Source of the DNA: Norana najaformis
Lineage: Eukaryota; Annelida; Clitellata; Crassiclitellata; Hormogastridae
Direction of reading: 5' to 3'
Assembly: GCA_964023275.1 (NCBI GenBank)
Contig: OZ029914.1
Coordinates: forward strand, 39,907,924 to 39,971,923
DNA length: 64,000 bases
Of the stretch, positions 542 through 60,178 are shown one piece after another. The notes below the pieces were generated by a model. The model was not told where the DNA came from. It worked only from the letters and a program-made list of their open reading frames with translations, and did no database searches. The translations under genes and the position numbers were made by a program. Position 1 is the first letter of the stretch; every line of letters starts with the position of its first letter.

Positions 542-697
542 TTATTTTCTTCGCACAGGAACCTTGAGCGTGTGGTCAATGCTAGCGTAGTGTGACACTT
601 GGATCGTGGAATGATGAACGACTGGTCCTGTGGCTGGCCTATCGTTGTCTGGACGGAAGTTCATCTGCACGTATTGTGTTCCATCAGCGCCAACGTA
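542..697 (-). CDS. Gene D exon 7: terminal tail exon with YVQM and SHYASI motifs
   Basis: The exon follows a TTTAG acceptor in phase 0 and encodes 51 residues ending PVRRK, then TAA at 544-542. It holds QYVQM (YxxM type) and SHYASI (ITIM type). The gene E counterpart has exactly the same length. An AATAAA hexamer overlaps the stop codon (541-546, minus strand) and recurs at the same place in gene E. Confidence 0.85.
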   Translation of the reverse strand, partial: YVGADGTQYVQMNFRPDNDRPATGPVVHHSTIQVSHYASIDHTLKVPVRRK

Positions 698-3600
698 CTA
701 AACAACATATAAGTAAGTAAGTAATGCATTTCTTAACACGCCATATGTCCATCGGCTGGGCGAGGAATCGTAGTAGTGGACAAACACATAAACAATTAAA
801 TACATAACACAGCAAACAAATAAAGATGACTAGCCACAAAGGAAGACATACAGAGTGACACACAAACATAAAGGCAGAAATATAACGCAATCATCTGGTA
901 CATCATTGAACAACGTAGAAGAAGATCTAATGCAAGTGACTACAAGGTAGAAACTGTGTCCCTTTGGACATGCACGTGATCATGTAAGTTCAGAAACCCA
1001 CATATGAGACATCAATGTTGTTAGGAACAACGTGCATATGCTTTTCAACTGCGGCTTTAAAATATACCAATGTCGTCGAGGCACCAAGATGGGTGATCAG
1101 TCGCTGGCCTACGATGCTATAGGATACTATATCAATTGTTGTAATTATATTACTCCTCCTTATACAGCAAAACAGATCAATGTGCTGTGCATGCCGTTTT
1201 CACATTATCAATAGGCTTTATGCAACGGTTTCAATAAGCTAAGACAGAAAAAATTGGTAATGCTCTTGCGAATTTTCACACCATAACTCCTCTATATATT
1301 TTTGAAGGGAAATTTCAACACTTCTTGTATTTGGTCGGAGCTCATTCACAGTTGATAATCTCAACATCTGGAACTCTCTAATTCCTCATTTTCGCGACTC
1401 TCTTATTGAGACTATATTTCGCTCTAAACTGGAACTTACCTACTCCAGTCTGTTCATGGTTCTTAATGTTTCCTGAAGCTCTGCCCTGTTCTGCGCTTTT
1501 GAACTTTGTAAAGGACAATATCATATTTAAGTTGTATTGTATAAATGTAGTTACAAGCATAGTTACAGATTCCAAAAGCTTGGTCCAAAATCTAAAATTG
1601 AAAACATGCGTGTCTACCGTCGTCAATAGTACAAGAGTCCCAAGACACCATCGAAAACTGTTGATGCCCTTTCTCTTTAAAATGAGTTTTAGATATTCTT
1701 AAAATTAAGTGCTAGATAAAACTCAAGTCTATACCTTCGTGTTCGTTTCATAATTGTGGTCTGCGTTATTTTCCGCTGCTTGCTTTGTAGTTAAATCGCT
1801 TGCTTCATTTCCTGAAAACAAATAGTAAATTTTATAGTTTAACTTAGCACAATGAGTCAAAATCCGTTTTTTATTACCGTCTCTGACGTTTTTCATTTTC
1901 CTCAGAGCATGTGCTCATGTAAGGCCTTACTTTTGGTAATATGAGTTAGTTAATATAGCATCCTTTGAGGAAAGTCATCAGCAGCTTTCGTTTCTGCTAC
2001 AAATTAGAATATTTGGAGTGCGAATGAGTAGGCCTAATTTACTGCAAGGGAAACTGCTCTAATGCATTATATAGTTGAGTTGTCAGCCATTCTACACATT
2101 CAATTGTAATGCAAACCAGATAGAATTCAGAGCTGTTCTTCCCAAATGAATTCGTAGACGACAGCCACTGTAATACAATAGACTAACCGTATCGGACATT
2201 ACTGAATATTACAATTGATTCTATTTGTAAGAAAAATTAGATATTGTTAGAGGACTGACTTTTATCGGAAAAGTCGATTTTGTGCAAGTGGTTTTTCTGG
2301 GTTGGAGAATCCAGGTTAAGATATTGCCACCTATGGGCTTAAATCATTCAAACAGTGACTTCATATGAGCACTTACTTGGTTCTTCTGCTACCAACTCCA
2401 CATATACAACATGGTTATTGCTGTTCAACGATCCATCCCTTTCTGTGGAAGAAAATACATCATTAAGGAGGATGTCAATAACCATTCGCAAGTTTAAGCG
2501 GAGGCAATATGCATCTATCTTGAGATAGCACCCATCGGCATTTCACCTATCGATGCTCCCAGGGTTTCATTCTTGCAAAATTTCTTCAACAGTTTCTATC
2601 AGAACTAGGTGTTTTTATGTGTCCAACACTCGAGAAAGAACGGTATGATCACGGACAGGAAGTTGCCAGAGTTGGCGACCTGGATGGCTTGAGACCACTC
2701 TAGTGTATTTCTTGCCTTGTCTTGTCTTTAACCGTCCTCAAGCCGAGGATTCGCTGCACCACGGTCAATTTTGTGCCATCTGCTGCTGTCCCTTATCTCC
2801 AGTAATAACTAAGCTACTCTAGGTCAAAGAGTAACCTATTCCAGAAACTAAGTAAATGAGTAAGTAAGTAATGCATTTGTTAACACGCCATATGTTCATC
2901 GGATGAGTGAGGAATAGTAGGCTTGGACGTAGACACAAACAATTAAGTACATAACAAAAGAAACAAATGAAGGAAGATGCACAACCACAAAGGCATGCAT
3001 ACTGAATGTTACTCAACGACACTTTGAATTGGGCCTTAAAAAGTATCTAGTTCTTGGTATTAGTGGATAATAAATGGACCATTACTTTGCCTCACCTTCC
3101 TGTATTAATATCACCTTAGTGCTAACTTTAATGCCAATCAAACCCATAAAATTACTCAATATTTGCCTAAAAGATGGCTGTGCTACGAATCAGGGCGAAT
3201 CACAGTTCAATCAGAAGTCAATGTGACCAACGAATTACATTCAAATATGGGATTCAATCTCAACAGCATTCAAATTCCATGCAACATCCGGCTAAAACGA
3301 GGAGCAACAAATGTCAGTTGTTTGACTATCAAAGAAACGACGAAGCAGTGTATCTAACCATCTGGAATAACGTGACCGTTTGGTTCGTTACGGATTTCTC
3401 TCGATTCACGCAGAACATATGACCTTTTCTTTCGACCTGCAATTTCAACAATAAAACCTTTGAAAATAGATGCCTTCATGTTTCAGTAGACTTGTATTAA
3501 ACTATTAAACACAGTGTTAAAGCTAACTTTATAGGCTAGGAGGAATAAACAGTTCACCGAATTAACTTGTTGTATATAAAATTTTAAAATTATTTTGTCT

Positions 3601-6600
3601 ACTGCGCGCAACAATATTGGCCCAAAGTGTCTTTATTATGGACGTAATTGCATGAGTGCTGTTGGAAACACTTTACCCACTTCATCACTTTCAATATTGG
3701 GATTTGTAATAATATATAATTGGCTATTGTTGCAAATTAGATGATTATTATTACGTTGTATTTACTTGTTTAGCGATACGCAAAGTCACTGAGAAGATTA
3801 ACAGCTTATGCCCTTTTGAATCGAAATCATTCTGCAGTAAACTCCCTAAATCCCGCCATCAACCCCTCTATCGTCTGATCGCCTGATAGCCTCATTGCAC
3901 CTTTGTGAAGTTCTTAAAAGGCTCTATATAATTAGCCACCTACATGCATTTAATGGATGCATACATACATGCAAACATGCATACACACGTATAGTCATCA
4001 ATTCATGCATTCGTTCATTCATGTATACATATATACATAAATACATACATACATACGTACATGCAGTCATTCATGCATGCATATATCCATACATGCTTAC
4101 ATACATACATACTTACATACTTACACGTACAGAAGCGTGCATAGAACTTTCTTTATTCTGTTACAGAGCGTAACTGGCAAGCGCTTACACACATCACAGA
4201 CACATTCCGCGTTAGCGTCGCACTGGCTTGTGGGCTACAGTCATCTTTAACAACATCAATGGCGTGCCCATCTTTGGAACGTTGCACTTTCTACAACTCT
4301 TTCCCACCGTACCCGGTCTTGGGCCCGTCTCCCTGTTGTGTATAGCCGAACTTTTCACCAGCATCTAAAAAGTGTTCTCTTTTGTCGGAGCTGTGCTGGA
4401 AGCGTCTCTGGTTATACTACTTGAAGGGGCGCTATAAAATATTCTGAATGAATGGCTATCCTACTCCATTGTCTGGGTCCAAGTCTGCCTCAGCCATCCG
4501 ACTGGTATCTTCCAGGTTCTCGGTGGACCGGATATCATGGCCTAGAGCGCCCTAGCGTGGTTCTGCTTGCTAACGGACCATCCCAAGTGTCCAAGGGTAT
4601 AGTCACTGCATTAAACTGACTGAAGAACTTTATTTCGTTGAACGCCAACGAATAGGACTTGTTTCTTCAACATTGCTTGATTGTATAGATAAGAAATGCT
4701 GAGTCCTTAAATAGTTGCATTATTTTGCATTTTACTAAAAAGTATGATACACAGTTCTGTAAAGAAACAAATTCTGAATGGTACTAACCTTTAATACATT
4801 GTCGGACAACAAGTGCAACTGCGATGAGGAGGAAAGTACAGAGCAGCCAGATGGCTATGATCGCAATGTAGATAGGTGGAGTTCTGCCTGTAAATCAATC
4901 ACCATTTTGCAGTTGAATACAACCAGAATAGGCCAGTAATTGCACTATCGTGCTTTTTTGTAAATTGCTTGAGAAACTATTTCACTTTTTTAATTAAACG
5001 ATGAACATGTCGAGATGTTTGTATAGGCTTACACAATTGCGCTTTTATTAGCATCATTATTCTTACGCAGCAACTAGGCCTACTCATCGCTTTAGGTTTT
5101 CCGACAGACGCGTCAGCTACTGTTACATATGTCACTCACGTGATAGGAATAGACTGAACCTTCATATTAGCATCCTGTTTATTGTTCAGCCAATCGAGAT
5201 TTACTAAACCTAGATCTCAATTTGATGCAGCATGCCTGTTTAACGAAAATCCCTCTATTTACAAGCGCCGGCTTACATTAAGCCTGCATACTAAAGTACA
5301 ATGCATTACATTCTATTGTAATGTAGCATATAATTTATGTAGTGTCTTTTCAATATATCTACTCAGACGCCATGGAGAGCTCGCAACACAGCTTCGGCGA
5401 AATGAAAGATTTCAAATTATTGCAGAAAGCACTACTAGCTTCGACTGAGAATTTTCTTTTACATATGCTAAGACATGTTAGAAACATATGTCGAAAATAT
5501 TGTATTAGAAAGTGCAACCAGGTGGTATAGAAGATTGACAAACGAAGAAAGACATTATTAGATAAGCTCTTGATCTAAAGTTAGTTAACGAAATTTTAGG
5601 TTAACTCTCGAGATCTGTGTGACCTTAAATTATCATTTTAATTGTCTATGAAGTTGGCTAAGAGTGATGGAGTTATAAATAACAAATATACAAGATACTA
5701 AATCAATTGTCCAATTCCATCATTTAAATGATCCGTGATGGTTGCCCTCATCCACCTGCCCACATTAATGACTAATACGACTAATCAATGTTAATGATTA
5801 TGCTTGCATGTTCAACCAAACTAATAGAAATGAACCTGAACTTACAGAGGACTTGTCCATACGATGACTTCCATATGTAGTTGTAGTTAGGAGCGTTTTC
5901 AGCGACTGTGGAATTCATCTTCGTTGGTGGAATTTCGAAGACTGTTTCACAAATAAACTGCGATCCATGGAGAGTAAAATCGGCAACAGTAGTCAACGTT
6001 GAAATAACGTTGTTCTGCGAAATAATGGACGTCGCGTTCAGCTCTCGTCCCTTCAAGTTATTGTTGCCGTTGGCCACGCTCCATTTCATTTTTGGAACCA
6101 GTGAGCCAGTGTAGCTCAACATACAGCACAGTTCGATTATATGGTCTTCTATTTCGACAACATTGCTTCTCATCTGGCACACGGGGTCTGCATCTTTTAA
6201 AACACAGCATATTACACATAAGCCGACCTATGCAAAAATCGATTATTTAACTTATTTAACTTATTACCTGAATCGCGTATGTAAGCATGCATGGAATTAA
6301 TTGCATTCTAGGCTCCATCTGCGCACTAGTTTGACGAAATGTACGCTATGGCGCAAATCATCTCGTAATCACTCCTTATCCTATTCAGTGGCGTCTTTTT
6401 CATTTGTCCAATTTTTATCTAAACCAAACAACCATCTTATATTACTCGGCAGATAGCGTCCGTGTTCACCATCATTTGAATGCGGCCGGTCGAACCACGC
6501 ACTTGTTGTATGAGGCTATTGGCATTTTGATGCGTATATCAACCTATTCAATGCGCTGAGAACATAACCGGTGTATAAGCGTATAAGAAAATGTACCAAA

Positions 6601-9600
6601 TGACGAGTATTCATATCAATTTGGAGTTGTAAGTAATTGAAAGGCTTTTGTATCACATTCGCCCGGGTATTTCTGATAGTTAATCTATTTGAGAACAGAA
6701 GTGATGTAGTTAGGCTTCGGGTTTTAGTGGCAGCACGGGCTAGCCCTCTCTCGATGGATCGGCGACGTTTGACTTATGTAAGCTCTGTGCTTAAGAACAG
6801 TGAATTGCAATGGTCTCGTGTACAACGACCTATGATGATTGTAGAAGCGGTCTGAAACCGGCTATAGAAAGAATTTTACATACTTCTATTTAGAAGCAAA
6901 TATTCGAGTTCATAAAGGCGATGCATAGATGCTCAGTAGATAGTTTAAAATCTTCAAAGCGTCAACAGACACCATAATATTGAAGCTCGGAAAATAAACT
7001 GATGATATGTTAGTACGGCAAATTAATACAGCATCGTAGAAAGCCAGTCATTTCCATAAGATGCGTTACAGTGTCACGTGTCAGTGCAAGAGTTACTAGG
7101 AGTTACTAAAAGTTACTAAGAGTTGCTATGAATTACTAAGGGTTAGATACCAGATGGAGTTTCCATTTTTTTTTGAAAACGTGAACACTCTCGGCCTTCT
7201 GATACGAGGTTACGAAGCCAATCTTATAGGCTGTACAGGTTAAAAGCTACTAGTCATATCTGCAAGACTTCTAAGTTTAGTGACCTCATATTCGTCACTT
7301 ACCAAGGAAGACCACATGTGCTGCAGCCTTTTCAATTGATATCAAGCCATCTTCTTCCTGGACCATGCTCGTACACGTATAGAGACCCGCGTGTAGTTTC
7401 TGCGCAGATATTATCGTCAGATTCTGTCCGGGTATGCTGCCGTTCAGAGTGGAGCCGTTGAAGATGGCATTGACGATTTGATTTCCGTCGTTGATTTTCC
7501 GCTCGTCTGAACTTCCAACCGGTGTATGGTACCAGTCGATTGGATTCGAACCATTTTCCCACAGGCAGGACATCTGTATGGACTCACCAGCTCGCACAAC
7601 CAAATTCATCGGACGATGCAACATTGCAGCCGATGCTGAATCCATATAACAAAAGGCGCAGATTAAAATATTGAGCCCTCGGAGACTATTTAATTGGACC
7701 CTCTGAGGCCTGTTCCCCAGTCCATGCTGAATTAGCTGGCCCCTTCTTTTTCAGATCAGGGATCGTCTGATCTCACTTGCATTTGCGGGCCCTGAGGGCC
7801 AGTAGTTAAGCTACTGATTAGTGACATTTTATGCATGAGCTAGCAGGGCCGTCAAAAAGTGCAACTGAAATGCGTGTTTTTATAATATTAGATTTATAAC
7901 ATTGTATGGCGCTTCAAAAGCGGCTAAATAATAGAATATAGATTGTGAGAAAATATGAAATAGAAGTGAAAGAAAAACTATGACCGCTACTTACTTTGAT
8001 TTTTTTAGAATAGCCTGTTTTTCAAATTTTCATAAGTGCCAATTAGCTTAATGAATATGCAGACACTTCAATTTGACATCCGAAAACATCTTATGAAATA
8101 ATTGGCATGAAATTCTCTGCTAAGATGTACCAAAAAGGGATGAAAACTTACATCTCATTTAAACATTTCAAATGAAGGCAGCACAATATTAAAACCGGTC
8201 TTAAGTTCTTTTAATAAAATCAGTTAATTATTATTTCCAAAGTATCATAGCGGTAATAAGTAAATAAAAGCGGTTAATAATAATGGATCTTAATTTTTTT
8301 ATTAAATATAGTTAGCAGGCCTATAAACAAGGACCTACAGCAGATGTTTCGTGATAACAGTTTCATGTCATGCCTGTTCAGTGACGGGAACTAACTACCT
8401 AAACTTCAGTCCATGCTGAATTACCTGGCCCCTTCCTTTTCAGATCAGGGCCCGCCTCATCTCACCCCCAGTTGCGGGCCCCGTGAGAAAGTATTATGAT
8501 TAGTGACATTTCATATATGCTCTAGTAGGGCCTTCAGGAAGTGCAACTGAAATTGTTTTTTGTAATATTATAATTCATTTTTAACATTGTACGGCGCTTC
8601 AGGAGCGGTTAAATAATACAATATAGATTGTGAGATTATATGACATAGAAGTGAAAGAAAAACTATGACCGCTACTTACTTTGCGTTTATTTAGAATAGC
8701 CTATTTTAAAATTTTTCCCAAAGGACATAAGTGCCAATTAGCTTAATGAACATGCAGACACGTTTACTTGACATCCGAAAACATCTTATGAAATAAATGA
8801 AATGAAATTCTACACAAAGATACAAAGATCTACTAATAAGCGATGAAAACGCACACCTCATTTAAACATTTCAAATGAAGGCAGCAAACTATTAAAACCG
8901 GTCTTAAGTTCTTTTCATAAAATCAGTTGATTATATTTTAAAGTATTATAGCGGTAATAAGTAAATAAAAGCGGTTAATATTAACGGAGCTTAACTTCTT
9001 TTTACTAAATATAGTTAGCAGGCCTATAAAACAAAGATCTATAACAGATATTTCGTGATTCAGTGATGTGGACTAACTACCTTAAAAGTAGTCTTCACTA
9101 CTTTTATTAACTTTTGAAGCATTCTAAGTAGCAGTTAGCAACTAGCATTAATGATAATGAGCAACTTCTAATGCGCCGGTGTCTAATGCACAAGGCATCA
9201 ACCGACGGCGCACCAAAGCCAAGCCACAATCAGGTCATTATCCAGAAGGTAAGTCCGCACGACAGCGAGACAGCCTACGGTGAATAAGCAATTTGAAACG
9301 TGTAAGTTTTTGGTTGAGATCGAAATGACAGAAGCGATTGAGCAGAACGAGCAAACACAGGGAGAGAGTTCCAGAATTTAAGTCCAGCAACCGAAAAAGC
9401 ACATTTACCAAGAACAGTTCTAGCCCAAGGTATGACCAGAGAAAGACATTCAGATGACTTTGCAGAATAATGGTAAGTCTGGGGAATAAGGACTGATTTT
9501 AAATATAGTGGTCGGCCAGAGTTAATATTTTAAAAACTGTAAGTCCCAGTTTGAAACAAATCTTTTGTTCAATAGGAAGCCCATGTAAAGATTTACATAA

Positions 9601-11086
9601 GTGCAGGGGTTATATGCTCATATTTAGAAGTATTTGTTATGGCTCTAGTCAAAGAGTTCTGAACTCGTTGGAGTTTCTGCATACTTGACTTTGTGATACC
9701 AACAAGAATTGAGTTACAATAGTCATTGCGACTGGAGACCAATGCATTAGCTAAGGATATTCTAGAAGACAGGGGACATAACGTCTAATTCTGCGCATGT
9801 CACGAATATTCATGTATGATGCCTTACACATACCATTAATATAGGGTGTGAGAGTCATGATAGAATCAAAAACAACGCCCAAATCGCAATCAGCATCAGT
9901 CAACTCAATGATTGAGTCCCCCACCTTTAAGGATTTAAGCCATTCAAACTTCTTAAGTTGCTTTGGAGTGCCAAGTAGTAGAAATTCAGTCTTTGACGGG
10001 TTAAGAAGGAGTTTATTAGCCGCCATCCAATACTACATCTCCTCAGAAGCATCAGACAACAGCAGCACAGACGAGTGACAAGAATGAAATGTAGACTTGG
10101 GTATCATCCGCATAGGAAAGATATCCCAGTGAATGACTGTCTAGCAGTGTACCCTAAAGGTGTGTTATATAATGTAAACAAAAGAGGACTAAGTACAGAA
10201 CCCTGCAGAACACCACAAGTCAGCGAGGCACTAGCTGAATAATGTCCATCTAATTATAGGGAATGAGTGCGAGAGCTGATATAAGTACCAAAGTACAAAG
10301 ACAAACCAACGTAGGGCGAGACCAGAAACCCCAAGCCTGTGCTAGAGACGATGCAAAAGGAGAGAATGGTCGATAATATCAAAGGCAGCAGACAAATCAA
10401 GGAGAACAATTGCTGTCACTTTACCCTTATCCATGGAGCTCTCGATGTCGTTATGAACAGCAAACAGGGCAGATTCAGTTGAAAGAAACTTGCGGTATGC
10501 AGATTGAAATGGAGACATTAGTGGGTTGGAAGACAGGTGAGCTTGCAAACGATTCAAAACTGTCCGTTCAAGAATTTTAGACATAAAATTTAAAGTTGAG
10601 ACGGATCTGTAATTGGACAAGTCACCTGAATCGAGAGAAGGTTTCTTTAACAGAGGATGAACTATGGCATGAGCAAAATCAGATGGGGAGGATCCCTCAA
10701 GCATTAGAATAAGCATTTAGTTACTTCTATAACTACTTCTGTAAATAACTCTGCTGTAAGATTTTTCATCTGCATTTTTACTTTTTAGCTGCATTTTTGT
10801 AGCAATGATAAAATATTGAACTAGATTGTAATTGTAATAAATATTGTGACCTCATTAATTTATAAGTAAGAACGTTATGCAGAAGAAGCTTAGAGGGACA
10901 TCTATGTCTCTGACAAACACACGCTTTCAGATGCTATGTGGAGAACAGCCAGATCATGTCTTATGTCATGACAAGCATTGAAGGTAAAACACAAGAAAAT
11001 TTCCTAACAGGACGTTAACCTTTTTGGTATTTACATAACTTACCCTTGTCCCTGAAGAATACCCATAGCAAAATGAACATCAACAT
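542..11086 (-). CDS. Gene D: two-Ig-domain transmembrane receptor with ITIM-type tail
   Basis: Predicted single-pass type I receptor. Exons join as 11086-11044, 7635-7303, 6187-5846, 4887-4789, 2442-2377, 1811-1735 and 697-542, all GT-AG, giving 1,116 nt and 371 residues. Layout: signal peptide (1-14), V-type Ig (15-125), second Ig (126-239), TM exon (240-272), cytoplasmic tail (273-371). The tail has five tyrosines: Y286 in VVYVEL, Y315, Y321, Y329 in QYVQM, and Y357 in SHYASI. The first and last fit the ITIM consensus (S/I/V/L)xYxx(I/V/L), and YVQM fits the YxxM PI3K-binding consensus. Gene E is the closest relative in the window but has an extra Ig exon. Splice phases agree throughout. The first exon is the least certain because it lies 3.4 kb upstream across an intron full of repeats. 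Ligand and function are unknown; an inhibitory receptor is inferred from the motifs. Confidence 0.8.
715..800 (-). repeat. CR1-like LINE 3' tail with (TTAC)n end
   Basis: On the minus strand this reads as a LINE 3' end containing 'CCGATGGACATATGGCGTG' followed by TTAC repeats. Related tails lie at 2,858-2,935, 43,480-43,560, 48,898-49,000 and, in the other orientation, 26,095-26,145. The 48.9-kb copy still joins reverse-transcriptase C-terminal coding sequence, which identifies the family. Confidence 0.75.
1735..1811 (-). CDS. Gene D exon 6: cytoplasmic tail exon
   Basis: Acceptor TTTTCAG and donor GTATAG bound 77 nt, entering in phase 1 and leaving in phase 0. It encodes 25 complete codons, including NYETN. 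The gene E counterpart (41,922-41,983) is 15 nt shorter in frame and shares TTxQAAENNA. Confidence 0.8.
2377..2442 (-). CDS. Gene D exon 5: tail exon with VVYVEL ITIM
   Basis: The exon is 66 nt between CCACAG and GTAAGT, phase 1-1. It encodes RDGSLNSNNHVVYVELVAEE plus one more proline. VVYVEL fits the ITIM consensus with V at -2 and L at +3. Gene E has EYVNL at this position, a YxxL that also matches the YxN GRB2-binding pattern but lacks the canonical -2 residue. Confidence 0.85.
2858..2935 (-). repeat. CR1-like LINE 3' tail with (TTAC)n end
   Basis: Second copy in the gene D locus of the tail described at 715-800. It also occurs in the E locus (43,480-43,560), so it was inserted before the D/E segmental duplication. 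Confidence 0.75.
3955..4135. repeat. (CATA)n-rich microsatellite
   Basis: Interrupted CATA/TGCA repeats. The corresponding place in the duplicated E locus (about 44,625-44,800) has a similar array, so it predates the duplication. The open frames across it are repeat translations. Confidence 0.9.
4190..4610. repeat. Decayed LINE-like remnant shared by both duplication copies
   Basis: The sequence 'GACACATTCCGCGTTAGCGTCG...' and what follows recur at about 44,865-45,190. The minus-strand translation in the second copy (RSRQTWTQPEEADLDPL) vaguely resembles the C-terminal end of RTE-type LINE proteins. Assignment is weak; no intact frame remains. Confidence 0.4.
4789..4887 (-). CDS. Gene D exon 4: transmembrane exon
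   Basis: The exon is 99 nt between TTTACAG and GTTAGT, phase 1-1. The hydrophobic run IYIAIIAIWLLCTFLLIAVA continues into LVV and is followed by RQCIK, a basic stop-transfer. No charged residue lies inside the membrane segment. Gene E has the same exon length and about 70% matching residues. Confidence 0.88.
5846..6187 (-). CDS. Gene D exon 3: second Ig domain
   Basis: The exon is 342 nt, phase 1-1, between GATGCAG and GTAAGT. It encodes a 113-codon Ig-type domain. The YTGSLVPKMKW stretch matches the Y-x-G-x-x-x-P-x-x-x-W pattern also found in the second domain of genes A, B, C and E, with the second core cysteine in FICETVF. Several N-x-S/T sites are present. Confidence 0.85.
6680..6855 (-). 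repeat. LINE C-terminal fragment in gene D intron
   Basis: The sequence resembles 15,985-16,115, the C-terminal part of a CR1-like reverse transcriptase read on the minus strand (ACAGTGAATTGCAATGGTCT against ACAGTGAATTGCAATAGTCT). The plus-strand open frame here is a shadow. Apart from this piece, 6,190-7,290 shows nothing recognisable. Confidence 0.5.
7303..7635 (-). CDS. Gene D exon 2: V-type Ig domain
   Basis: The exon is 333 nt, phase 1-1, between GATTCAG and GTAAGTG. It shows GESIQMSC, then IDWYH for the core tryptophan, then HAGLYTC for the F-strand cysteine. It ends VVFLG, comparable with IVFG or IVLG at the end of the first Ig exon in the other genes. Confidence 0.87.
7718..9084. repeat. 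Tandem duplication of a ~0.69-kb unit in gene D intron 1
   Basis: Copy 1 runs about 7,718-8,401 and copy 2 about 8,407-9,084. Both start 'CAGTCCATGCTGAATTA' and contain 'GAAAGAAAAACTATGACCGC', 'AACATCTTATGAAATAA' and 'TAGTTAGCAGGCCTATAAA'. The period is about 689 bp, with scattered substitutions and small indels. No coding potential was seen and the family is not recognised. Confidence 0.85.
9130..10720 (-). mobile_element. CR1-like non-LTR retrotransposon, 5'-truncated and decayed
   Basis: Minus-strand frames show reverse-transcriptase features in order: PLLKKPSLDSGDLSNYRSVS, FQSAYRKF, LLDLSAAFDIIDH (RT motif A), then NKLLLNPSKTEFLLLGTP and LGVVFDS, then the C-terminal AFSVAGLKFWNSLPVFARS-type block near 9,300-9,420. 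The frame is interrupted by stops and the catalytic (Y/F)xDD segment is not intact. Fragments of its 3' region recur near 35,060, 37,230-37,410, 58,830 and 61,010-61,205. It lies inside gene D intron 1. Confidence 0.85.
11044..11086 (-). CDS. Gene D exon 1: putative signal-peptide exon
   Basis: ATG at 11,086 opens a 43-nt exon encoding MLMFILLWVFFRDK plus one base, ending at a GTAAGTT donor in phase 1. That is exactly the length and phase of the signal exons in genes A and B (43 nt; 46 nt in C) and joins in frame to the Ig exon at 7,635. It is 3.4 kb away, so transcript support is missing. Confidence 0.6.
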
Positions 11087-47000: not shown

Positions 47001-48648
47001 ACATCAACTGATCGCCGGAATAGAGAATGTCTCTTTCTGGATGCACTGATACATCTCTCGGACCATCTTAAAGACATTAAATATATTCGATTTTATACTA
47101 ATTCATGTCAATAAAAGTAAATAGTAAAGCGCTAATATTAAATCTTATAATCATGCATTTGGGACATTTAGAATAAGTCTGATCGAAATTTTAATAGTCA
47201 ATCCCAATGCTTATACCTAAGTCTAAAACATCGTGTTTTGCTGATTATTTAATTCATACAAATATCCTCTATATTGTATTCTTCACCATTTTTTGTTTTA
47301 ACTAAATTAATGTTTCAGCTGTACTATAAAAATTATGAAAATTAAACTCACACAGTACGTTAATTTCGGGCGATTTCCATGTGTGATTGTAATCCGGAGT
47401 ATTGTTGTTGACTTTTGTCTTCACTAAAACTTCGCTGGAGTTAAAATAAGTAAGACACTCAAAGCTGATATGGTTGTGGTATGGTTTGGCTAAAATTCGA
47501 AGAGAAACAGTCAGGTTTGCGTAATAATGTGACTCGCTAACATTAACCAAAATGTCATCGTTATTGATTTTCTCTTGTCCAGTAAGTCCAAGTTGTGTCC
47601 ATTCCATGACTGGTCTCCAAAATCCGCCATACGTAACACTACACTGTAGCTGTATATATTCGTTTTCCATCACCGTGACATTTTCCACATTGCAAGTTGG
47701 ATCAGAAGCTGCGGTAAATATGAAAATCAAATTTCATAATTATGTGCTAGCTCCATAGACACTGTATGTTAGCGTACAGCTTATCAGGTTAGTCTTGTCA
47801 GTCGCAACAAAAACGCATTTTAGAATAGCATTATATGAAACAAGTAATCACGATTTTAATCCATCTCTCAGGTAGCGCCGTGTTAGGTAGATACTTTAGT
47901 ATAACGACTTATACAACGAGGAAATAAACAAATTGATCCAAAAAAGTTTGCAAGCCTCAAGAAAACTTCTCAGAAGTGTGGTCTTGTGCTCGAAGATTCA
48001 TTAGGCTATAAGGACTGAACACGACCACGGCAATGCATCGATAGTACATCTTTCAACCTCCTAAACTAATCATTTACTCAGACCGCGAGAATTAAGAAGG
48101 GAGAATTAAGGGCTGACTGGACGCCAGTTGGCCAGGAACGGTCACTTATTATCAAAGCGCTCACCGAGCTAGACCCCATATATATTTCACTCTACATACG
48201 TACTTCGTTGCACCTACCAGCGGTATATTAACAAAACCAAGCGGCCATTGAGTAAAAAAAGTGCCGAGCATTGCTAGCCTGATGGATTGCCTTTTTTAAT
48301 CATAAGAAATGTGAAATTAGCACTTACCGAGTACTATCAAATGACCCCCGATCTCCTCTGTTGTTAGTGCAGTCGAATTAATTGTTGTGCAGTAGTAAAT
48401 TCCTGCATCCCGTAGCTGAACAGAGTTTATAATGAGAGCTTCTCTATTCTGTATCCTTATCATCAAATAATTTGTTGACATATTGCTTCCTGAGGTCTTG
48501 GTTAGAATTTGAGGCGAAGAAGTATTCGGATTTTGGTGATACCAGTCAATATTAAAAGAATCATTTTCAGGAGGTACACATGTTATGAGTACTTTTGTGC
48601 CAGATAGAATTGCGACGTTACCAGGTCCACGTGATTCGCTGGCACCAG
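40847..48648 (-). CDS. Gene E: three-Ig-domain transmembrane receptor with ITIM-type tail (first exon not found)
   Basis: Predicted type I receptor. Exons found are 48648-48328, 47708-47352, 47066-46818, 45474-45376, 42641-42576, 41983-41922 and 41002-40847 (1,310 nt, GT-AG, phases consistent). A signal-peptide exon upstream of 48,648 is required by phase but I could not identify it. Layout: V-type Ig, second Ig with the YGGFWRPVMEW pattern, an I-set-like third Ig, a TM exon, then the tail. Tail tyrosines lie in DEYVNL (YxxL, also YxN), ASYNE, QYVQM (YxxM) and SHYASI (ITIM consensus). Gene D is its close relative but lacks the third Ig exon. The set of motifs suggests SH2-domain recruitment, so an inhibitory or dual-signalling receptor is inferred; no ligand is known. 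Confidence 0.82.
41922..41983 (-). CDS. Gene E tail exon
   Basis: 62 nt between TTTCAG and GTAAAG, entering in phase 1 and leaving in phase 0. NEARDITTTQAAENNASYNE aligns with the 25-codon exon of D, five codons shorter at its end. Confidence 0.82.
42576..42641 (-). CDS. Gene E tail exon with EYVNL
   Basis: 66 nt, phase 1-1, the same size as the VVYVEL exon of D. RIGTQNNNDPDEYVNLFAIG: the tyrosine has L at +3 and N at +2, but D at -2, so it is a weaker ITIM match and a possible GRB2-type site. Confidence 0.83.
42705..43442. mobile_element. hAT-type nonautonomous element (MITE)
   Basis: Inverted termini CAGGGATGGGCA and TGCCCATCCCTG are flanked by a perfect 8-bp target duplication AGGTCAGA (42,697-42,704 and 43,443-43,450). 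The inside has many inverted AATTTGTAATT-type subterminal repeats and no intact frame. The gene D copy of this locus (about 2,815-2,830) is the empty site. Eight-base duplications and these termini are typical of hAT elements. Confidence 0.92.
43480..43560 (-). repeat. CR1-like LINE 3' tail with (TTAC)n end
   Basis: Counterpart of 2,858-2,935 in the duplicated block. Confidence 0.75.
44620..44805. repeat. (CATA)n-rich microsatellite
   Basis: Counterpart of 3,955-4,135 in the duplicated block. The YVCM-type open frames are not genes. Confidence 0.92.
45376..45474 (-). CDS. Gene E transmembrane exon
   Basis: 99 nt between TGACAG and GTTAGC, phase 1-1. IYIASIAVSLFCTFLLIAIV then LAVRKRVK, a basic stop-transfer. 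The same length as in D. Confidence 0.88.
46818..47066 (-). CDS. Gene E third Ig domain exon (I-set-like)
   Basis: 249 nt, phase 1-1, between TTTAAG and GTAAGT. Landmarks: SGDQLMCSAMGNPQPEYKW and PYVFRCTAQNS. It is missing from gene D and unlike the Cys-rich third exon of A-C. Because it is phase-symmetric it can be gained or lost without breaking the frame. Confidence 0.87.
47352..47708 (-). CDS. Gene E second Ig domain exon
   Basis: 357 nt, phase 1-1, between CCGCAG and GTGAGT. IQLQCSVTYGGFWRPVMEW and ISFECLTYF carry the core Cys-Trp-Cys. The C-terminal NHTWKSPEINVL resembles NYIWKSSYGQVL of D. Confidence 0.88.
48328..48648 (-). CDS. Gene E V-type Ig domain exon
   Basis: 321 nt, phase 1-1, between TTTCAG and GTAAGTG. 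Landmarks: VLITC, FNIDWYHQN, LRDAGIYYC, LIVLG. The canonical DxGxYxC signature is intact. No long ATG-initiated frame covers the exon, so it is easy to overlook. Confidence 0.9.
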
Positions 48649-48930: not shown

Positions 48931-49480
48931 TGCATTTGTTAACACGCCATATGTCCATCGGCTGAACGAGGAATCGTAGGCGTGGGTGGGTCACAGCGGT
49001 CAGACAACAAAAGCAAGACGATACAAATAGGTCTTCAGTCGCTTTACGAATAGGTCTAGCGAGATATTGTTGTGAGTTATGCAAACAGGAAGACTATTCC
49101 ATATGGCTGGTGCAGAATTACTGAATCCTCGTCGTGAGAAATCAGACCGATAGTCTCTGATGTCAGGGAAGGGTAGAAGGTTTTGTGTTGCTGATCGCAG
49201 AGATTTGGATGGTTGGAAGCGCTGTAAGGAGGATGACAGGTAAGCTGGTTGATTGGTAGAGAGAGTCTTGCGTGTGAGGAGTGCTGTCTTGTAAGTGATT
49301 CTGGAGCTGACAGGCAACCAATGTAGATCTGACAGTATAGGAGTGATGTGGTCAAACCTTCGGGTTCCAGTCACCAGACGGGCTAACGAGTTTTGGACGC
49401 GTTGTAGCTTGGCGATGTTAGATTTTGTAGTGCCGTACAGCAACGAATTACAGTAGTCGAGTTTTGCTCTGACTACGCTA
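48898..49480 (-). mobile_element. CR1-like LINE, 5'-truncated, with 3' (TTAC)n tail
   Basis: The minus-strand frame contains LQRVQNSLARLVTGTRRFDH then ITPILSDLHWLPVSSRI and FSNSAPAIWNSLPV, ending RLKTYLYRLAF. The 3' UTR holds CCGATGGACATATGGCGTG and the TTAC tail at 48,898-48,930. The best-preserved member of this family in the window, just upstream of the gene E Ig exons. Confidence 0.92.
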
Positions 49481-49539
49481 CAAGCGACTGTCTTAATAAG
49501 TTCCGGTGGTAAGCACGATCGAACGTATAAATTTAAAAG

Positions 49540-50565
49540 CTGGTACTGACGCTGTGTTCTTTAAGTGTGTCACATATTCTGACTTTGCTCATATTTAAGT
49601 CAGACCCGAAGATAAATGCACGGCTTTTGTGTGGTAATACGATGCCAGTTTGCCTGAAGTCCAGTTTACCAACCTGAGAGAAATTTTGCTATAATGCAGA
49701 ATGCGAAGACAATGAAATTCATATCCGCCAAATTTGATGTAAGTTGAGAGTGAAATTAAAACCAAATTTATGATGAAAGATTGCGCCTTTGTACGTCAAA
49801 AGTATCAGCTCGGATGGGTATGTTAGGTCCTATTATCTTCTTTGATTTATATCCAATCCTAAAACAACGTCAGCCAAAGACTTAAATCAGTTAGTGTTTT
49901 ATAACGAAATATTAACAAACATCATGATGAAAACATAAATAACCTAATTAAGTATAGCCTAATTTTGTGTTGATCAATTTTGTATTGACCTTACTATAAA
50001 ATCTTGGTTGCTAATTAGATAAACGTATAACACTTCACATAGGTATCAAAGTAGCCACAAAACGACGACATATCATTGTTTAACTTAGTCAGTATTATAT
50101 TAATGAATTGAAAATTTTCATTTAAAATATTGGTGGGGTGTATATTTGATTAGTAAAACTGGAGGGCGTTTGAGTTTATTTAAAAGGCATACCCACCTAA
50201 TAGTTCATCTGCATTTAGAGGATCAAACTATCAGTTATCAGGTGTTTATTTAAAGAAACCTAGTGTACGAGTTTTGCCAAGCCTTTAAAGGTATATTTCT
50301 CAGTTAAAAATTTCCTTAACAGAAGCGGAACATCTTAGGAGAACTCTGTGAAGCTCCCTAAAGTAAATATGGATCGAATTAATCAATCTTTTAAAAACTC
50401 ATGAAAACTCATTTCACTAAAGATTGGACATTCAAATGAACAAGCATAAATCGGGTAATTCAATAATTATAAATTTAAAAGCTAGTACTGCCGTTGTATT
50501 CTTTAAGTGTGTCACATATTCTGACTTTGCTCATATTTAAGTCAGACCCGAAGATAAATGTTTGT
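49540..50565. repeat. Direct repeat pair, ~90 bp each
   Basis: 49,535-49,615 and 50,468-50,562 share 'TATAAATTTAAAAGCT.GTACTG.CG' and 'TTCTTTAAGTGTGTCACATATTCTGACTTTGCTC' onwards to 'CCGAAGATAAATG'. The intervening 0.85 kb shows nothing recognisable. Confidence 0.8.
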
Positions 50566-53299: not shown

Positions 53300-56160
53300 C
53301 TTTGGACTTTGTATAGAACGGCATTCCAAAAGGCTTGTCGGATAAAACCGTTGCTGGCTAGGTTGATTTTTCCATTCTATCTATTTCGTTTTCTATTTTG
53401 TTCGGTATTTGTTTGATGGTTGTACCTTCATCTGACTAACTCTAGTTTCTTATTCCGTCGTTAGAGCTTACTGTTTGTTTGGTTCGCTGGACACAATGGT
53501 TTCACTTTTAAATACAGAGCATTAAAATAAACCGTTGGTTAGTCAATGTTCAGCTTTCCACAAATGCGACATGGGTTCGATTCCTGAGTGTGATATGTGG
53601 AGTCGACAAGTATTTATAGTAGCCTATAGTGCAATATAGTATCTATAATATAGTGTTTTATGTAGGATAGTGTAAGACATTGTAACATAGCATAACAAAT
53701 AGTAAGTATGGTGCTTTTAGTAAATCATAATACAACAAATATTATATCAATAATTAGTGGAAACTGTAAAATAGTGTACAATAATTAAACACATGGGTGA
53801 ATTCGCAATTCTGGCAGTTTTGACTTTTGGTGCTAAAGAGTTTGCGTGTCTGAATTATTTTTCGCATCCAACACGTATTTACTGCAATTCAAACGGTTTT
53901 TGCCGCATGTTATCGTGACCTTCTGTGACTGGAATGTTCCATCAACAGAGGGAGAATAGGACTCCAGCTGGGCAGTCAAGCCTCACACCGACAGACCTAT
54001 GTACGAAGGACGAAGGGCGAAGAGAGCGGAGCGACACCGCACGTCAACAACGTAATGGCTCAACTAACTACCGACCACCGGGCGACGAATCCCTATCCTG
54101 TGCATATCCGTCAGTTCGAGGAATATCCGGACGCCGCGTCGTGTTCCATCTACGGAGGACTTCTGGACGGTGATACAATGGTGAGCCATTTAGGCCTACT
54201 ATTGGATGAATGTTCTGTTCTTAATGACATTTTACATCGTTAAGTCTAGCGCAGAGAGCTGTTCTGATTAGTTTTTCTTGAAGAAGCGCTATACAAATTT
54301 TTGATTACAGTTACGGTTACATTTAAGCTAAAACTAATCGAATTTATGACAAAATGGACATTTCGTTACAGTGGCCACCATCTTGCAGACATATAGCAAC
54401 TTTTTTTCATGAAATTAAGCCTGCAAATGATGCAGTCATGCAATGTTCAATTAGCTTAAAAATAAAAGGTGTTCAAAATCATTACCCATTTTATTCGTAA
54501 TAGTAATCGTTTAGGCGAGTCTTTTACCTCCTGTATTATAGAAGTTTCCATGTTAGCTTAGATCAGATGCTCCCTTCTCTGTTTAATGCGTGACTACATT
54601 GAAATTACTAGGCTTATTTCCGGAAAAGCTATGGGACTTTTCTTTTTATTTATGAAGAGCTACGAAATGCCCTATTGACTTTTGCTCTATTGTTTGGTCG
54701 TCGCTAATTAGGCCTACTTCAGAGATCTTTTTAAGACCGATCCAGACCGTCATGAAGATGAAAATAAAATTTCCGGTTTAGTCATTGGCGTAAAATGGGT
54801 ATAATTAACAAAAACATTTAAATCTTTAGAGACCCTGATAGCCACGTTTATTGGGACTCATTGGACCCATAGCTATCCATCAGTTTTTAACAACAGGCCA
54901 ATTCGTGCCAGTTATGGAAAGAATGCACATGACTGTACTCTGGGAATTATTGATGCTACGTGTCTTCGGGATTTACATGTACAGTTTTCATAAGGAGGGT
55001 CCTTCTAAAACGACAACCTTCTGACCGTTTTATGGTCTATCTCTTTCAGAAGAAGAAGAGAAAACTCTTCTGAAATCAAGTCAGAAGAAAACTTCATAAG
55101 GGGGCGTGGCTTCAGTTTGTTTACATTTCATATAAACAACATTTTGAATACCGTAATAACTCTCTGCAATACCCCCAAAAAATTCATCTTTGTAAAGTCT
55201 TCATTATTCAACCTACGCGATCATCCTATTACTGCACTCTAGCCCGTCCCCAATCACTACTCACCTGATATTCTCTACCCTATTCATATCCCACATTCCA
55301 CCTGTCTTCTGAAATGACCTTGCATTGACAGCGATCTTCACCGCCCTCCACCCCTTCTGTCGTTCACCCAACATCATTTGTCTGAAGCCCATCCATCTAT
55401 CACTAATCAAGTTTTCAATTAAGGAATGAAATCCCACCTACTCAAGAAATCTTACCCTGATAGTTTTAATCCACCGACTTTCAAACATAAGTACCTTTAC
55501 TGTTTCTCAGTTCTTTCCTCTCAGGGTCTAGTAATCGTAATTGTAAGATTTATACAGCTCCCAACGAACGTTAGGTTGCAGGAACCATCTTATTCACTGC
55601 AGGCACTCAGTCAGAATAAAAACGTGAGGCAAGAAGGGTTCGGTTTCAGGTCAAGACCAAAGAGTCAGGCAGGCAGATACGGTGGATGGCGTTTGGAGTG
55701 GAACCGGAAAGTGAGATAAAGAGAAAAGGAAGAATTGGGATAGGATCCGTAGAAGATGAGTGATTTCAGTTTTGAGTGAAAGATTTGCGCAGAGATTTTA
55801 AGGGGCGAAGTGTCGGTGAGTTCATAGGATGGTTTACATAATTGGTCTCCAGGTAACCAGGTAGTCGGTCTACAGATAACCAAATGTTTTTTCACACATA
55901 TAAACCATCTGATTTTGGGGAAGTGCCCGTGAATGAACTCATGTCCTACTTTTAGGTTATGGATTTTTTGAGCGCTTTTGCTTAGTGGCTATATATAGTT
56001 TTGACTCAAAACTTTTGAGGGGATTTTACTGAAAGCGTCCGTTACAAACTTCCTGTTATTGGACAAACCGTTCATTTTCCATTCTTGATCATGGAATTTT
56101 CTCAAAAATTTAACACAACATTTTTCTCATGTGTCTAACTGAAACTTACTAGAAGAAACG
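53300..56160. other. Gene C 5' flank (duplicate of gene B flank)
   Basis: Similarity to about 29,720-31,850, including the inner half of the inverted-arm sequence (53,300-53,850) and the following 'TTTGCGTGTCTGAATTATTTTTCGC' block. A LINE 3' tail with (TAATCG)n-type start lies at about 55,515-55,690 (related to 15,414-15,610). No gene was seen. Confidence 0.7.
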
Positions 56161-56168: not shown

Positions 56169-56279
56169 ACGTCTAAAAACGCCTTTGGCTTTGAGTTGCC
56201 GTGGCTGAGCAGAGGAGATATCCATTGTGTCAATTTGGTCAAATAAGCAACTTAAAGCAGCATTCTACGTTAATCTACA

Positions 56280-59200
56280 ATGTTTCTGCGAATAGCAACC
56301 TGTTTCCTATTAATGCTATTAATAGGTAATCGAAATTTGACATGGTGTTATTTGGTGGTCCGACATGTGTTCCATGGACACGTGTAGTTCACAGATGGTT
56401 ACCAAAACAGTTGTGGCGTAGCCCTATGTTTGTGATTTACGTGCATGTTCAAATGGAAATCCGGGAAAACACAATGTATTAATCTTATAAATTATAATAC
56501 TCTATTGACTTATAAATTCGTAAGCATGCACAGTGATAACTTCGGTGTTTAACATTTCTTTTCAGTTGACAGCAAATTATTACAATTACCAGAAGACACA
56601 GAAGCTCTGATAGGACAGGATGAGGTCATCTTGAAATGTCGAACAGACGTCACAGACTCTGCTAATCCAGTCGAATGGCATCACAAATTGAATAAAGATG
56701 CTGATTTCTATATTGTATATAAGCGGGGATGGATTCTGAACGGATATCGTGGCAGGTTTAAGGTGCTACCAAATGCAACATCAGGGCAGTACGACCTAAC
56801 TATAACAGGCGTGAAACTGGAAGACGCTGGTGCATACACGTGCATGGACAGAGACTCCCAACATAAAGCAGAGTTAATTGTCTTTGGTTAGTATAATTAC
56901 CAGTAGTACTTCATTTTCATAATTTCACAGTTTAATTTGTTCATATCATGCAGTTTAAAGTGACAAAAACTTTTCGACATGATAAGTTTTTCTTTTTCTT
57001 TGTGTTGTATCAACGACCTCTATAACGCCGTTATTATAATGGCCGTGAAATCAACCAATGATCGCTTCAAGTGAAAATATATCTATAGTCTGTACAGTAA
57101 CATTGGGACTGTGAACACCAAAATGTATTTTCTTGTTGGATGTACGAATTGGCAAATAATATAACATTTTAATGTTGATTACGTTTATTTTTGTAGAAAA
57201 ATATCCATCGAATGTATCTTGCACGGCAAATTCGCCACCAGATGGCTTTCTGGGAAGCAATAATTGTGGCCTGGAACCAGATACAGTTATGATGTCGTGC
57301 GATCTCAGTTATCGAGGAAATCTGGTTCCTGTCCTTGAATGGATGGATGGGGAAAATGTGATACCTTCGCACATCAACAAAGATGCATTTGGAGTCACCA
57401 AATCATCCATCGAACGAAAGGCAGATCAGCACCAGACATCTACGTACACATGTCGCATCAAATATCCTGACTCTACGATTACGTCACGTTTTGCATTTTC
57501 TTCAACTGTGAACAGAAGATGTGAGTTCTATACACAGTACTCACAGCGTTTTGTGTGCTTAGACAGTTTATAATTGTGTATCCCTAAATCTTTTCTATCT
57601 TCATGTCTATCGAGTTAATTTATTTGTCTTTTATTGTTTAATGATCCTCTTCGCTTCTATTACACATTAGCCTTTTGTTTACTTTGAAAAATCTAGCTCA
57701 TTCTGTGCTGTTATTCACAATATTGTTTTCAATGCACAGGAAGATAGACCATGTTGGTGATTTATAAATGGCTATATTGTTTTTTCTTTGCAACTGTTAG
57801 CTATTACAAATATTGTTTTTTTTGCGACTGTTAGCTCTTACAAATACAACGAACCTGTCATTTGGCGGATGTGATTTGGAAAGCTTAGATTGCTCTGATG
57901 TAATCAGTGGTGAATGCAGTTACACCTGGTTTTCCGAAAATGGCATTGAACTGATCCACAATGCAGCTGTGAAGTTGACAGGCAAATCGGATGGAAACTA
58001 CACCTGCTTAGCTACATGCAATGTTCGTCAGACACCGTGTTCTTATGTAGTCAAGTACCTCAACTACCAATGTAACCACTACAGCAGTAAGTACGTTAGT
58101 GAGTGCTAACTATATTGTTGCTAATATTGCTTTCTATTACAGTTGTGTGAACGATCGCAGGCTTTTAGAACAAGTTTCAAGCTTTGTCTATTTATTGAAT
58201 GATTATATAACCTTACCTTTCTAATATAAATATACAAACGTTTCTTTTAAAACCCTTTCCATTAAAGATTGTTATGGAAACAAGAGTTAAATCTAATCAA
58301 GTGCATGGTTTTATTGTTTCATATAAATTAAATTGAAGATAGTTTAACATGAATTTGTATTAATTTTAGTGAGTCTGAGTTACTTCCTTTTGGATCTGTC
58401 GAAAACAACAGCATCACCTAGAAAATGGCCCCTCGAGATTTGTATTCCTGTTGCCATCCTTCTTGTTGGGGTTTCAGTCATGATGATGATTCTTGCATTT
58501 TTATTCAGAAGGTAACAACCATTCGACTTATTATATTTGCTTATTGTTACGAGTGATATAAAAAATAAAAACAAAAGAATTTTTACTTCCTGGCTATTAG
58601 AACATTCGGTAAAATGTATTAGATAATTTATGTACAAAGATAAGCTTTCAGTTCATCAGCTAAGTGTTCTACCAGGCTGTTAAAGTAGGAGGAAGTATTG
58701 CAACCGTTCGCTATTATGCAGGTTGATAATAGTCTTTCATGGCTATGGGCTAAGGCTTACTAAGTAATGAAGTGATCAAACACAGAATTTTTTTGCGGAA
58801 GAAATAAAAATAAGCAACTTGTATAGAGCCGGTGTATAATGCACAAAGTTTCAAACGATGGCACACCAAAATGAAGCCATAATCAGGTCGATGCACAGAA
58901 AGTAATTCTGTCAACAGCATACTACTAGGGCGAGAAATTTCAACAACTCAAAATACATTTCTACCATAATCTCAGCTAAATAATATATATTAGAACATGT
59001 TTATTAAATCTCCAGCTTAGGAAACAATGAAGCTCACAGACAGTCTCAAACGGAATAGAACAATTTTTGAATTAGAGTTAAATTGATGGTAAGCAAAACA
59101 CGAAGAATGTTTTTAAGATCAACAAGAGAACACTATGGAAACCTGTGGTTTCAAATTATGGCCGCACATGACAGAATGTAAAGACGCAATTGGAAGGATA

Positions 59201-60178
59201 GATCTAAACATTTTTGTGGAAGTGGTTGGTTATTATACAATTAAAAGTTGATGTTTTCTTGTAGATTGTTATGTACCTGCAAAGAGAGAAGATGTCTCTG
59301 TATTAGTGATGGTAAGACATTTTCACTAAGTAATGAAAACATTGATTTCAATATACATTCATGCTAGATTTTACTCATACGTATTTATACATGCATCAGG
59401 ATATTTATGCATAACCTTTAGAAAATCTTGTTAATTTATTAATTAACGGCTTGATAGTTTGTCACGTTACTGTGCCAGGCGCATTTGAAGAAATGTACAT
59501 TTTATTTACTAAGGAGTGTTGTGTTTTCTAGATCTTGAAGCTCTGAGTAGCTACCATGCAAATGTGTCACTTACAGAAGAATTGATCACACAAGGTAAAT
59601 ATGTTTTGTTGCATGTGAGAAATATTATAAACAAGTGAGATTAAATACTTATTGAGTACTGGCCGATAACAAGTTTATATTGCAGCATGTAACCATGTAT
59701 GCTCAAAACTGTAATATGCTTGCTCAAACGATATCAGACTCTCTTAATTGCATCTTTCAAAGCTTCTGTTGCATTTTATTACTAATAGCATGACGTTCTG
59801 GAAAGTCAGTTCAATGAATCTGAGAGGCAGTCTGAGCTATTGAGGTAAATTCTTGGAAGCAAAGCATAAAAACTAAATGAATTTTACTTATCTTGTAAGA
59901 CCCCTAATCTTACTGAAGAAAGAAGACAAAAAATAAGAATAGCAATTTTCTGTGACACTTAGGCTCTTATAATTCAGTCTGGCCTCGATTTTGGAGTGTT
60001 TTGTAACCTACAGCAAGTTAAATGAAATAGTTTGGCTAAAATGCCTTTAATATGTTTTATAGAGCCTTTTGTTTCACTCACAGATACCTCAGAAACGAAG
60101 CAAATCAACATCTCCGGCAACGATGCTACCAGCATCGAAGAGATCCCAGAGATAACTAATCTGCTTCGGCAGAGTTGA
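56280..60178 (+). CDS. Gene C: three-Ig-domain transmembrane receptor
   Basis: Predicted type I membrane protein of 415 residues. Exons are 56280-56325, 56566-56886, 57197-57520, 57835-58086, 58412-58511, 59265-59311, 59532-59594 and 60084-60178 (1,248 nt, GT-AG, frame kept). Layout: signal peptide MFLRIATCFLLMLLI, V-type Ig (16-122), second Ig (123-230), Cys-rich Ig-like (231-314), TM exon (315-347), and a 68-residue tail starting LLCTCKERRCLC. The tail has a single tyrosine (SSYHANV, not an ITIM) and ends EITNLLRQS, where EITNLL fits the acidic dileucine sorting consensus [DE]xxxL[LI]. Gene B is its duplicate. The acceptor of exon 4 is tandemly duplicated in the intron and only the downstream one keeps the frame. 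Function is unknown. Confidence 0.9.
56566..56886 (+). CDS. Gene C exon 2: V-type Ig domain
   Basis: 321 nt, phase 1-1. Landmarks are VILKC, VEWHH, KLEDAGAYTC, ELIVFG. Confidence 0.93.
57197..57520 (+). CDS. Gene C exon 3: second Ig domain
   Basis: 324 nt, phase 1-1. Contains SYRGNLVPVLEW and STYTCRIKY; nearly the same as gene B. Confidence 0.93.
57835..58086 (+). CDS. Gene C exon 4: Cys-rich Ig-like domain
   Basis: 252 nt, phase 1-1. SGECSYTWFSENGIEL, then DGNYTCLATC and LNYQC. It retains the eight residues lost in B. It starts at the second of two CTGTTAG acceptors 34 bp apart. Confidence 0.88.
58412..58511 (+). CDS. Gene C exon 5: transmembrane exon
   Basis: 100 nt, entering in phase 1 and leaving in phase 2. 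SPRKWPLEICIPVAILLVGV then SVMMMILAFLFR. One glutamate sits at the outer edge of the membrane segment. Confidence 0.87.
59265..59311 (+). CDS. Gene C exon 6: Cys-rich juxtamembrane microexon
   Basis: 47 nt, entering in phase 2 and leaving in phase 1. LLCTCKERRCLCISD has four cysteines and is six nt longer than in A and B. Confidence 0.82.
59532..59594 (+). CDS. Gene C exon 7: tail exon
   Basis: 63 nt, phase 1-1, between TTTCTAG and GTAAAT. LEALSSYHANVSLTEELITQ. It contains the only cytoplasmic tyrosine among genes A-C. Confidence 0.8.
60084..60178 (+). CDS. Gene C exon 8: last tail exon
   Basis: 95 nt, entered in phase 1, ending TGA. TSETKQINISGNDATSIEEI then PEITNLLRQS. Confidence 0.83.

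Follow-up and report, generated by a model that had tools for sequence, protein, structure and literature searches.

Vertebrates, a tunicate and a hydrozoan are known to possess clustered immunoglobulin (Ig) receptors with tail motifs of the immunoreceptor tyrosine-based inhibitory type (ITIM), and the vertebrate examples include the paired receptors KIR, LILR and SIRP. In the tunicate Botryllus schlosseri the fuhc locus places the fester family (FF), which is without signalling motifs, beside the fester co-receptors (FcoR), whose tails carry ITIM or hemi-immunoreceptor tyrosine-based activation (hemITAM) motifs (PMC12065747). The allorecognition complex of the hydrozoan Hydractinia symbiolongicarpus holds 41 Alr genes (PMC11999971), and candidate genes of the Hydractinia complex carry immunoreceptor tyrosine-based activation motifs (ITAM) or ITIM (PMC12065747). 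Allograft rejection in annelids has been reported since 1969, and it is described in earthworms and leeches (PMC2248247). Searches of the open-access literature, most subscription journals lying outside this scope, brought up no recognisable description of such a receptor family in annelids.

We analysed a stretch of 64,000 nucleotides from the annelid Norana najaformis (C2:39907924-39971923, hereafter the window; assembly of 608 Mb in 17 contigs) that contains five Ig-receptor genes, A (17884-23718), B (31970-36337) and C (56280-60178) on the plus strand and D (7635-542) and E (49722-40847) on the minus strand, with positions 542 and 60178 being the final bases of the stop codons of D and C. 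On balance we think it likely that the window is one section of a very large family of paired cell-surface Ig receptors, most of which sit on a single chromosome. In this view the type with a tyrosine-motif tail (D/E-type, or tailed) is probably inhibitory, its relative (A/B/C-type, or untailed) is non-signalling, and the role is most likely innate immune or self/non-self recognition. A large annelid family with repeated back-to-back pairing would mean that the design is found again in protostomes or dates back to them, and it would point to specific genes as candidates for the rejection of allografts in annelids.

Like KIR, LILR and SIRP, the locus sets inhibitory-type members adjacent to tail-poor relatives, and its S/T-x-Y-A-x-I and YxxM motifs resemble the switch-type motif (ITSM) of PD-1 and the motif of CD28 and ICOS, respectively. 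The vertebrate paired receptors are nevertheless an independent lineage, and their activating members carry a basic transmembrane (TM) residue for ITAM adaptors, whereas A, B and C have none. In layout the nearest system is Botryllus FF/FcoR, which shares the adjacency of motif-less and ITIM-type members and the large multigene families (PMC12065747). It differs in that FF combines Ig and Sushi domains with three TM segments and FcoR has a Sushi domain (PMC12065747), whereas each window model has one TM segment, and a scan of A, C, D and E gave no Sushi match even at E<=1. It also belongs to another phylum, and the likeness rests on layout, not on sequence comparison. In domain plan the nearest system is Hydractinia Alr, with its clustered type I Ig receptors of V-set plus I-set domains (PMC11999971, PMC13119343), although the reports at hand, seen in part, give no divergent pairing of two types, the host differs and the likeness is one of domain plan.

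Two related receptor types in one cluster

GT-AG boundaries are found in 25/25 introns between the modelled exons of A-E and likewise at the junctions to the predicted signal-peptide exons of A, B, C and E, the Ig exons are joined in phase 1, and each of the five models has a single TM segment. Pfam Ig_3 lay above its curated cut-off in all four genes scanned (A, C, D and E), and V-set did so in A, C and E but not in D, B being outside the scan. A protein database search with E returned 2401 candidates, none reaching E<=0.001, and so gave E no named relative. When E was compared with PDB sequences, the matches were antibodies and Ig proteins of cell adhesion, which is informative only as far as 'Ig'.

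The first and second Ig domains are shared by the genes of both strands. By tblastn, A Ig1 matches E Ig1 (33% identity, E=7e-6), B Ig1 and Ig2 match those of D (E=3e-5 and E=8e-4), and D Ig2 matches E Ig2 (30% identity, E=8e-12), which indicates common ancestry of Ig1 and Ig2 across the plus- and minus-strand genes. Ig3 is type-specific, being Cys-rich in A, B and C and I-set-like in E, and E Ig3 has no tblastn partner elsewhere in the window. The related-looking ectodomain plans of the earlier note are corrected in one point, as D has two Ig domains, Ig1 and Ig2, and the third of the three in E is partnerless in the window. At the DNA level four blocks, which take in introns, are 68-82% identical between D and E (213-5424 against 40510-46021); upstream of these blocks there is no DNA match, and Ig1 and Ig2 are only ~30% identical as proteins. 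By these alignments neither gene is a plain duplicate of the other. Since the match between D and E is confined to the 3′ half, and the Ig1 and Ig2 of D are closely matched at one other place (C2:39.885-39.887 Mb, 95% and 79% identical), we infer that D apparently combines a divergent 5′ half with the 3′ half of the cluster.

The two types part most clearly in their cytoplasmic tails. The tails of D and E (83 and 78 residues) hold four and three tyrosines and both contain YVQM together with SHYASI, an ITIM/ITSM-like motif that fits the ITIM consensus [S/I/V/L]xYxx[I/V/L]. The tails of A, B and C (53, 44 and 69 residues) hold none, none and one, the sole tyrosine of C sitting in SSYHAN, which is not an ITIM. 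Among the first 20 tail residues there are 2, 3 and 4 cysteines in A, B and C, and 1 and 0 in D and E. These are the ITIM-type and YxxM motifs, the tyrosine counts and the Cys-rich juxtamembrane exon that the earlier note had described, and all are borne out; of the LLxxS ends that it gave to all three plus-strand genes, those of B (LLAHS) and C (LLRQS) fit and that of A (LLQS) does so only loosely. The TM segments of A, B and C contain no K or R and the three genes have no ITAM; coupling to ITAM adaptors is therefore unsupported, and the plus-strand genes bear no mark of activators. What defines paired receptors, related ectodomains of which one has an ITIM and the other does not, is found in the five window genes. 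The proposed division into inhibitory and non-inhibitory members accordingly holds as a contrast of tails, with 'inhibitory' resting on the motifs, of which YxxM could also recruit PI3K. The last tail exon of E is duplicated in part at 39685-39798 on the minus strand, where the copy carries THYASI, an ITSM-like form; a repeat beside it recurs near 15433-15608 and 55423-55719.

Pairing and extent of the family in the genome

Paralogue loci elsewhere in the same genome, labelled L with a number, were collected with Ig2+Ig3 queries from E and C, for each of which 150 candidates were scored, so that counts are lower bounds: at least 157 matches for the E query and at least 151 for the C query. Among the matches listed, to which all counts of rows and neighbours here refer, we examined 230 Ig2-type rows, 91 of D/E-type (D included) and 139 of A/B/C-type. 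Most lie on C2 (210/230), the others being on C4 (12), C8 (5), C1 (2) and C3 (1). Unlike neighbours within 12 kb are divergent in 15 of 20 cases, convergent in 2 and tandem in 3; within 40 kb they lie on opposite strands in 39/46 (21 divergent, 18 convergent), and like neighbours over the same distance are tandem in 86/89. The same order is found cluster by cluster. At C2 0.22-4.37 Mb the A/B/C-type is on the minus strand in 46/56 rows and the D/E-type on the plus strand in 21/23, at C4 28.61-29.0 Mb the A/B/C-type is on plus in 4/4 and the D/E-type on minus in 6/8, and at C2 39.19-41.36 Mb both senses are present and close unlike pairs are divergent in 9/10. The layout first proposed for the window, a cluster of related Ig receptors on opposed strands in which some members have tyrosine-motif tails and others lack them, is real and recurs along C2. 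Separately, C2 10.34-12.90 Mb holds 43 A/B/C-like Ig2 rows, 38 of them on the plus strand, with zero D/E-type among the matches listed, and these rows are perhaps a third subfamily.

At E<=0.01 a search with the final tail exon of D gave 11 matches. Every one is on C2, with seven in the Ig cluster at 39.9-40.1 Mb and single matches at 42.40, 48.55, 48.92 and 49.91 Mb. Tail exons in unrelated genes, named at the outset as an observation that would speak against the models, were not seen, with 7/11 matches inside the Ig cluster and 11/11 on C2. In an alignment of 10 of the 11 matches (the partial copy L019 omitted), GADGT and the next tyrosine (GADGTxY) are invariant and YASIDH is present in 9/10, L018 being without YAS. 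The four remote tail exons are 46-56% identical to that of D. As the motifs are kept in tails of such low identity, and other clusters show the strand rule again, both are more than chance.

Four remote pairs were read as genes (L056/L057, L058/L059, L062/L063 and L061/L060), with the tail exons picked by eye. In 4/4 D/E-type members the TM exon ends in phase 1 and is followed by a multi-tyrosine exon with a phase-matched AG acceptor. The tyrosine motifs are SSYTQL in L057, STYEEV, VTYLEI and SFYLKI in L059, and DSYASI and VDYVNV in L060, and a strict ITIM is present in each of these three genes. TM segments were found in 4/4 A/B/C-type members, of which L058 may end without a tyrosine, though a possible donor precedes its stop. 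Open reading frames (ORFs) with five or more Y-x-x-I/L/V/M motifs on the gene strand were present at 3/4 D/E-type and 0/4 A/B/C-type loci, and one such ORF, of 37 residues, lay on a control strand.

Several observations weigh against this interpretation of the family. Five of the 20 close unlike pairs among the matches listed break the divergent rule, and the duplication of units means that neither neighbour pairs nor rows are independent. The type of a remote row is that of the query that found it, which is weak evidence at low scores. Only eight remote genes were read, ITIM-free tails are established for A, B and C only, and L063 (VYDDI, GYDDI, EYEEV) has no strict ITIM but only the Y-x-x-I/V/L core. 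The number of Y motifs per ORF was discarded as a criterion for tail type, as three or more are common on all strands, controls included. The ratio of non-synonymous to synonymous change (dN/dS) described below stays under 1 for E-type Ig1 (0.87), two D-type copies reverse the trend between domains (Ig1 0.28, Ig2 0.73, wide intervals), and the last tail exon, at 0.77 among five near-identical copies, shows no constraint when taken by itself.

Selection, mechanism and competing explanations

The distal domain evolves differently in the two types. In means of pairs with codon bootstrap intervals, dN/dS of E-type copies (seven each) is 0.87 (0.57-1.48) for Ig1, 0.28 (0.18-0.44) for Ig2 and 0.61 (0.36-1.00) for Ig3, with larger sets giving 0.30 for Ig2 (9 copies) and 0.58 for Ig3 (10 copies). 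The values for B/C-type copies are 0.18 (0.09-0.32), 0.39 (0.24-0.62) and 0.36 (0.18-0.64) in 5, 5 and 4 copies. Ig1 is thus fast in E-type copies and under purifying selection in B/C-type copies, and the fast change in E-type copies fits ligand recognition. Furthermore, exons are mosaic between copies, E and L025 being 94/96/70% identical in Ig1/Ig2/Ig3 and L029 and L030 being 76% identical in Ig1 and 95% in Ig3. As a separate observation, L032 (C2:40044532-40048140) has lost the middle of its Ig2 exon and has an Ig3 96% identical to that of E.

We propose a model that, by analogy, is the best reading of these observations, in which divergent tailed/untailed pairs would work like Botryllus FF/FcoR or the vertebrate paired receptors, membership being claimed in none of these systems. 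The Ig1 of an E-type receptor would bind variable ligands, and engagement would lead a Src-type kinase to phosphorylate SHYASI and YVQM, as in known pathways. The phosphorylated motifs could then recruit SH2 proteins, a SHP-type phosphatase and PI3K, which would tune the threshold of the effector cell, inhibition being the likeliest sign. The untailed A/B/C-type may serve as co-receptor, ligand or decoy, itself non-signalling, with a Cys cluster that is perhaps palmitoylated. A bolder extension, which we offer very tentatively and hold to be rather unlikely, is that the family supplies the missing receptors for coelomocyte cytotoxicity and graft rejection in annelids, as a protostome complex that resembles natural killer receptors, lies mostly on one chromosome and is built of back-to-back pairs of a conserved untailed and a fast-evolving inhibitory member.

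Two narrower explanations concern the role. In a strict allorecognition complex the tailed receptors would read polymorphic self markers, perhaps their untailed partners, and so decide the acceptance or rejection of tissue between individuals. The Botryllus arrangement, with a motif-less family adjoining ITIM/hemITAM-tailed co-receptors, is alike, and D shares with E a 3′ half and has an unrelated-looking 5′ half just as fester and uncle fester share the 3′ and not the 5′ half (PMC12065747); annelids, moreover, reject allografts with short-term memory (PMC2248247). The host, however, is not known as colonial, and the Ig1 conserved among B/C-type paralogues is a poor fit to a polymorphic self marker, so that we regard this role as possible but doubtful. 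In innate pathogen sensing the rapidly changing Ig1 of tailed copies would keep pace with ligands of microbes or parasites, and the untailed copies would be decoys or capture receptors. Such a role would account for the many copies, the mosaic exons and the fast Ig1, all of them usual in pathogen-driven families; it leaves the kept divergent pairing and the slow B/C-type Ig1 unexplained, and we regard it, too, as possible but doubtful.

A family for cell adhesion or neuronal recognition, with signalling and non-signalling members and no immune role, as in insect Dpr/DIP or Beat/Side, appears improbable: an Ig2 profile is nearest to DCC in PDB (E=6e-8), with CD80 next, and nervous systems also show expansion of Ig families, but genes of neuronal recognition do not usually have very large clusters, mosaic exons and a fast Ig1. 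A mostly decaying array of duplicates and pseudogenes with little function, to which the duplicated units, the lost Ig2 middle of L032 and the partial tail exon at 39685-39798 might point, is very improbable given that all five genes of the window have open frames and canonical splice sites, that purifying selection acts on the Ig1 of B/C-type copies (0.18) and the Ig2 of E-type copies (0.28), and that the tail motifs persist in remote copies.

Exon structure and other features

On the plus strand, gene A comprises a predicted signal-peptide exon (17884-17926), Ig1 (18422-18742), Ig2 (19353-19664), the Cys-rich Ig3 (20586-20837), a stalk and TM exon (21376-21535), the Cys-rich juxtamembrane exon (22704-22744) and a last exon without tyrosine (23603-23718). 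B follows the same plan, with a predicted signal-peptide exon (31970-32012), Ig1 (32481-32801), Ig2 (33076-33399), a Cys-rich Ig3 8 residues shorter than that of C (33678-33905), a TM exon (34730-34826), the Cys-rich juxtamembrane exon (35453-35493) and a last exon without tyrosine (36249-36337). In C the predicted signal-peptide exon (56280-56325) precedes Ig1 (56566-56886), Ig2 (57197-57520), the Cys-rich Ig3 (57835-58086), the TM exon (58412-58511), the Cys-rich juxtamembrane exon (59265-59311), a tail exon with the tyrosine of SSYHAN (59532-59594) and a last exon with the LLRQS end and stop (60084-60178); an extra tail exon at 59789 was dropped, as by eye its frame closes immediately.

On the minus strand, D runs from Ig1 (7303-7635) through Ig2 (5846-6193), the TM exon (4789-4887) and a tail exon (1735-1811; NEASDLTTKQAAENNADHNYETNTK) to the last exon with YVQM, SHYASI and the stop (542-697). 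E begins with a predicted signal-peptide exon that rests on one sequence (49674-49722), followed by Ig1, with its V-set match above cut-off (48328-48648), Ig2 (47352-47708), the I-set-like Ig3 (46818-47066), the TM exon (45376-45474), a tail exon (41922-41983) and the last exon with YVQM, SHYASI and the stop (40847-41002).

Signal exons were scanned with permissive settings, under which weaker candidates arose on control strands too. The A/B/C-type signal exon recurs in 4/6 paralogues tested, the exon and spacing of C being matched in L037, L038 and L040 and an exon similar to that of A being present in L047; none was found in L052 or L054. Because candidates occur on control strands, and the A/B/C exons recur in paralogues, only the latter have good support. 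For D the strongest candidate, 3.4 kb upstream, was not accepted, leaving D without a signal-peptide exon.

The window also holds ORFs that by eye resemble pieces of non-LTR (long terminal repeat) reverse transcriptase, all on the minus strand (9751-10716, 15869-16231 and 49000-49560). Elsewhere in the assembly, other dense groups of exon matches to the Pfam ig family lie at C3 5.39-5.58, C13 15.23-15.29, C7 27.2, C8 33.1 and C1 63.6 Mb. Finally, L034 and L035 (C15, 0.41 and 0.57 Mb) are two nuclear copies of mitochondrial DNA, and the COX1 matches in the assembly are nuclear inserts. L035 has the order nad3 - trnS(TCT) - nad2 - cox1 - trnN(GTT) - cox2 (tRNAs by ARAGORN, proteins by eye), the order of annelids such as Lumbricus, which points to an annelid as the source, and AGA in COX2 of the nuclear insert falls where serine is expected, as in the invertebrate code.

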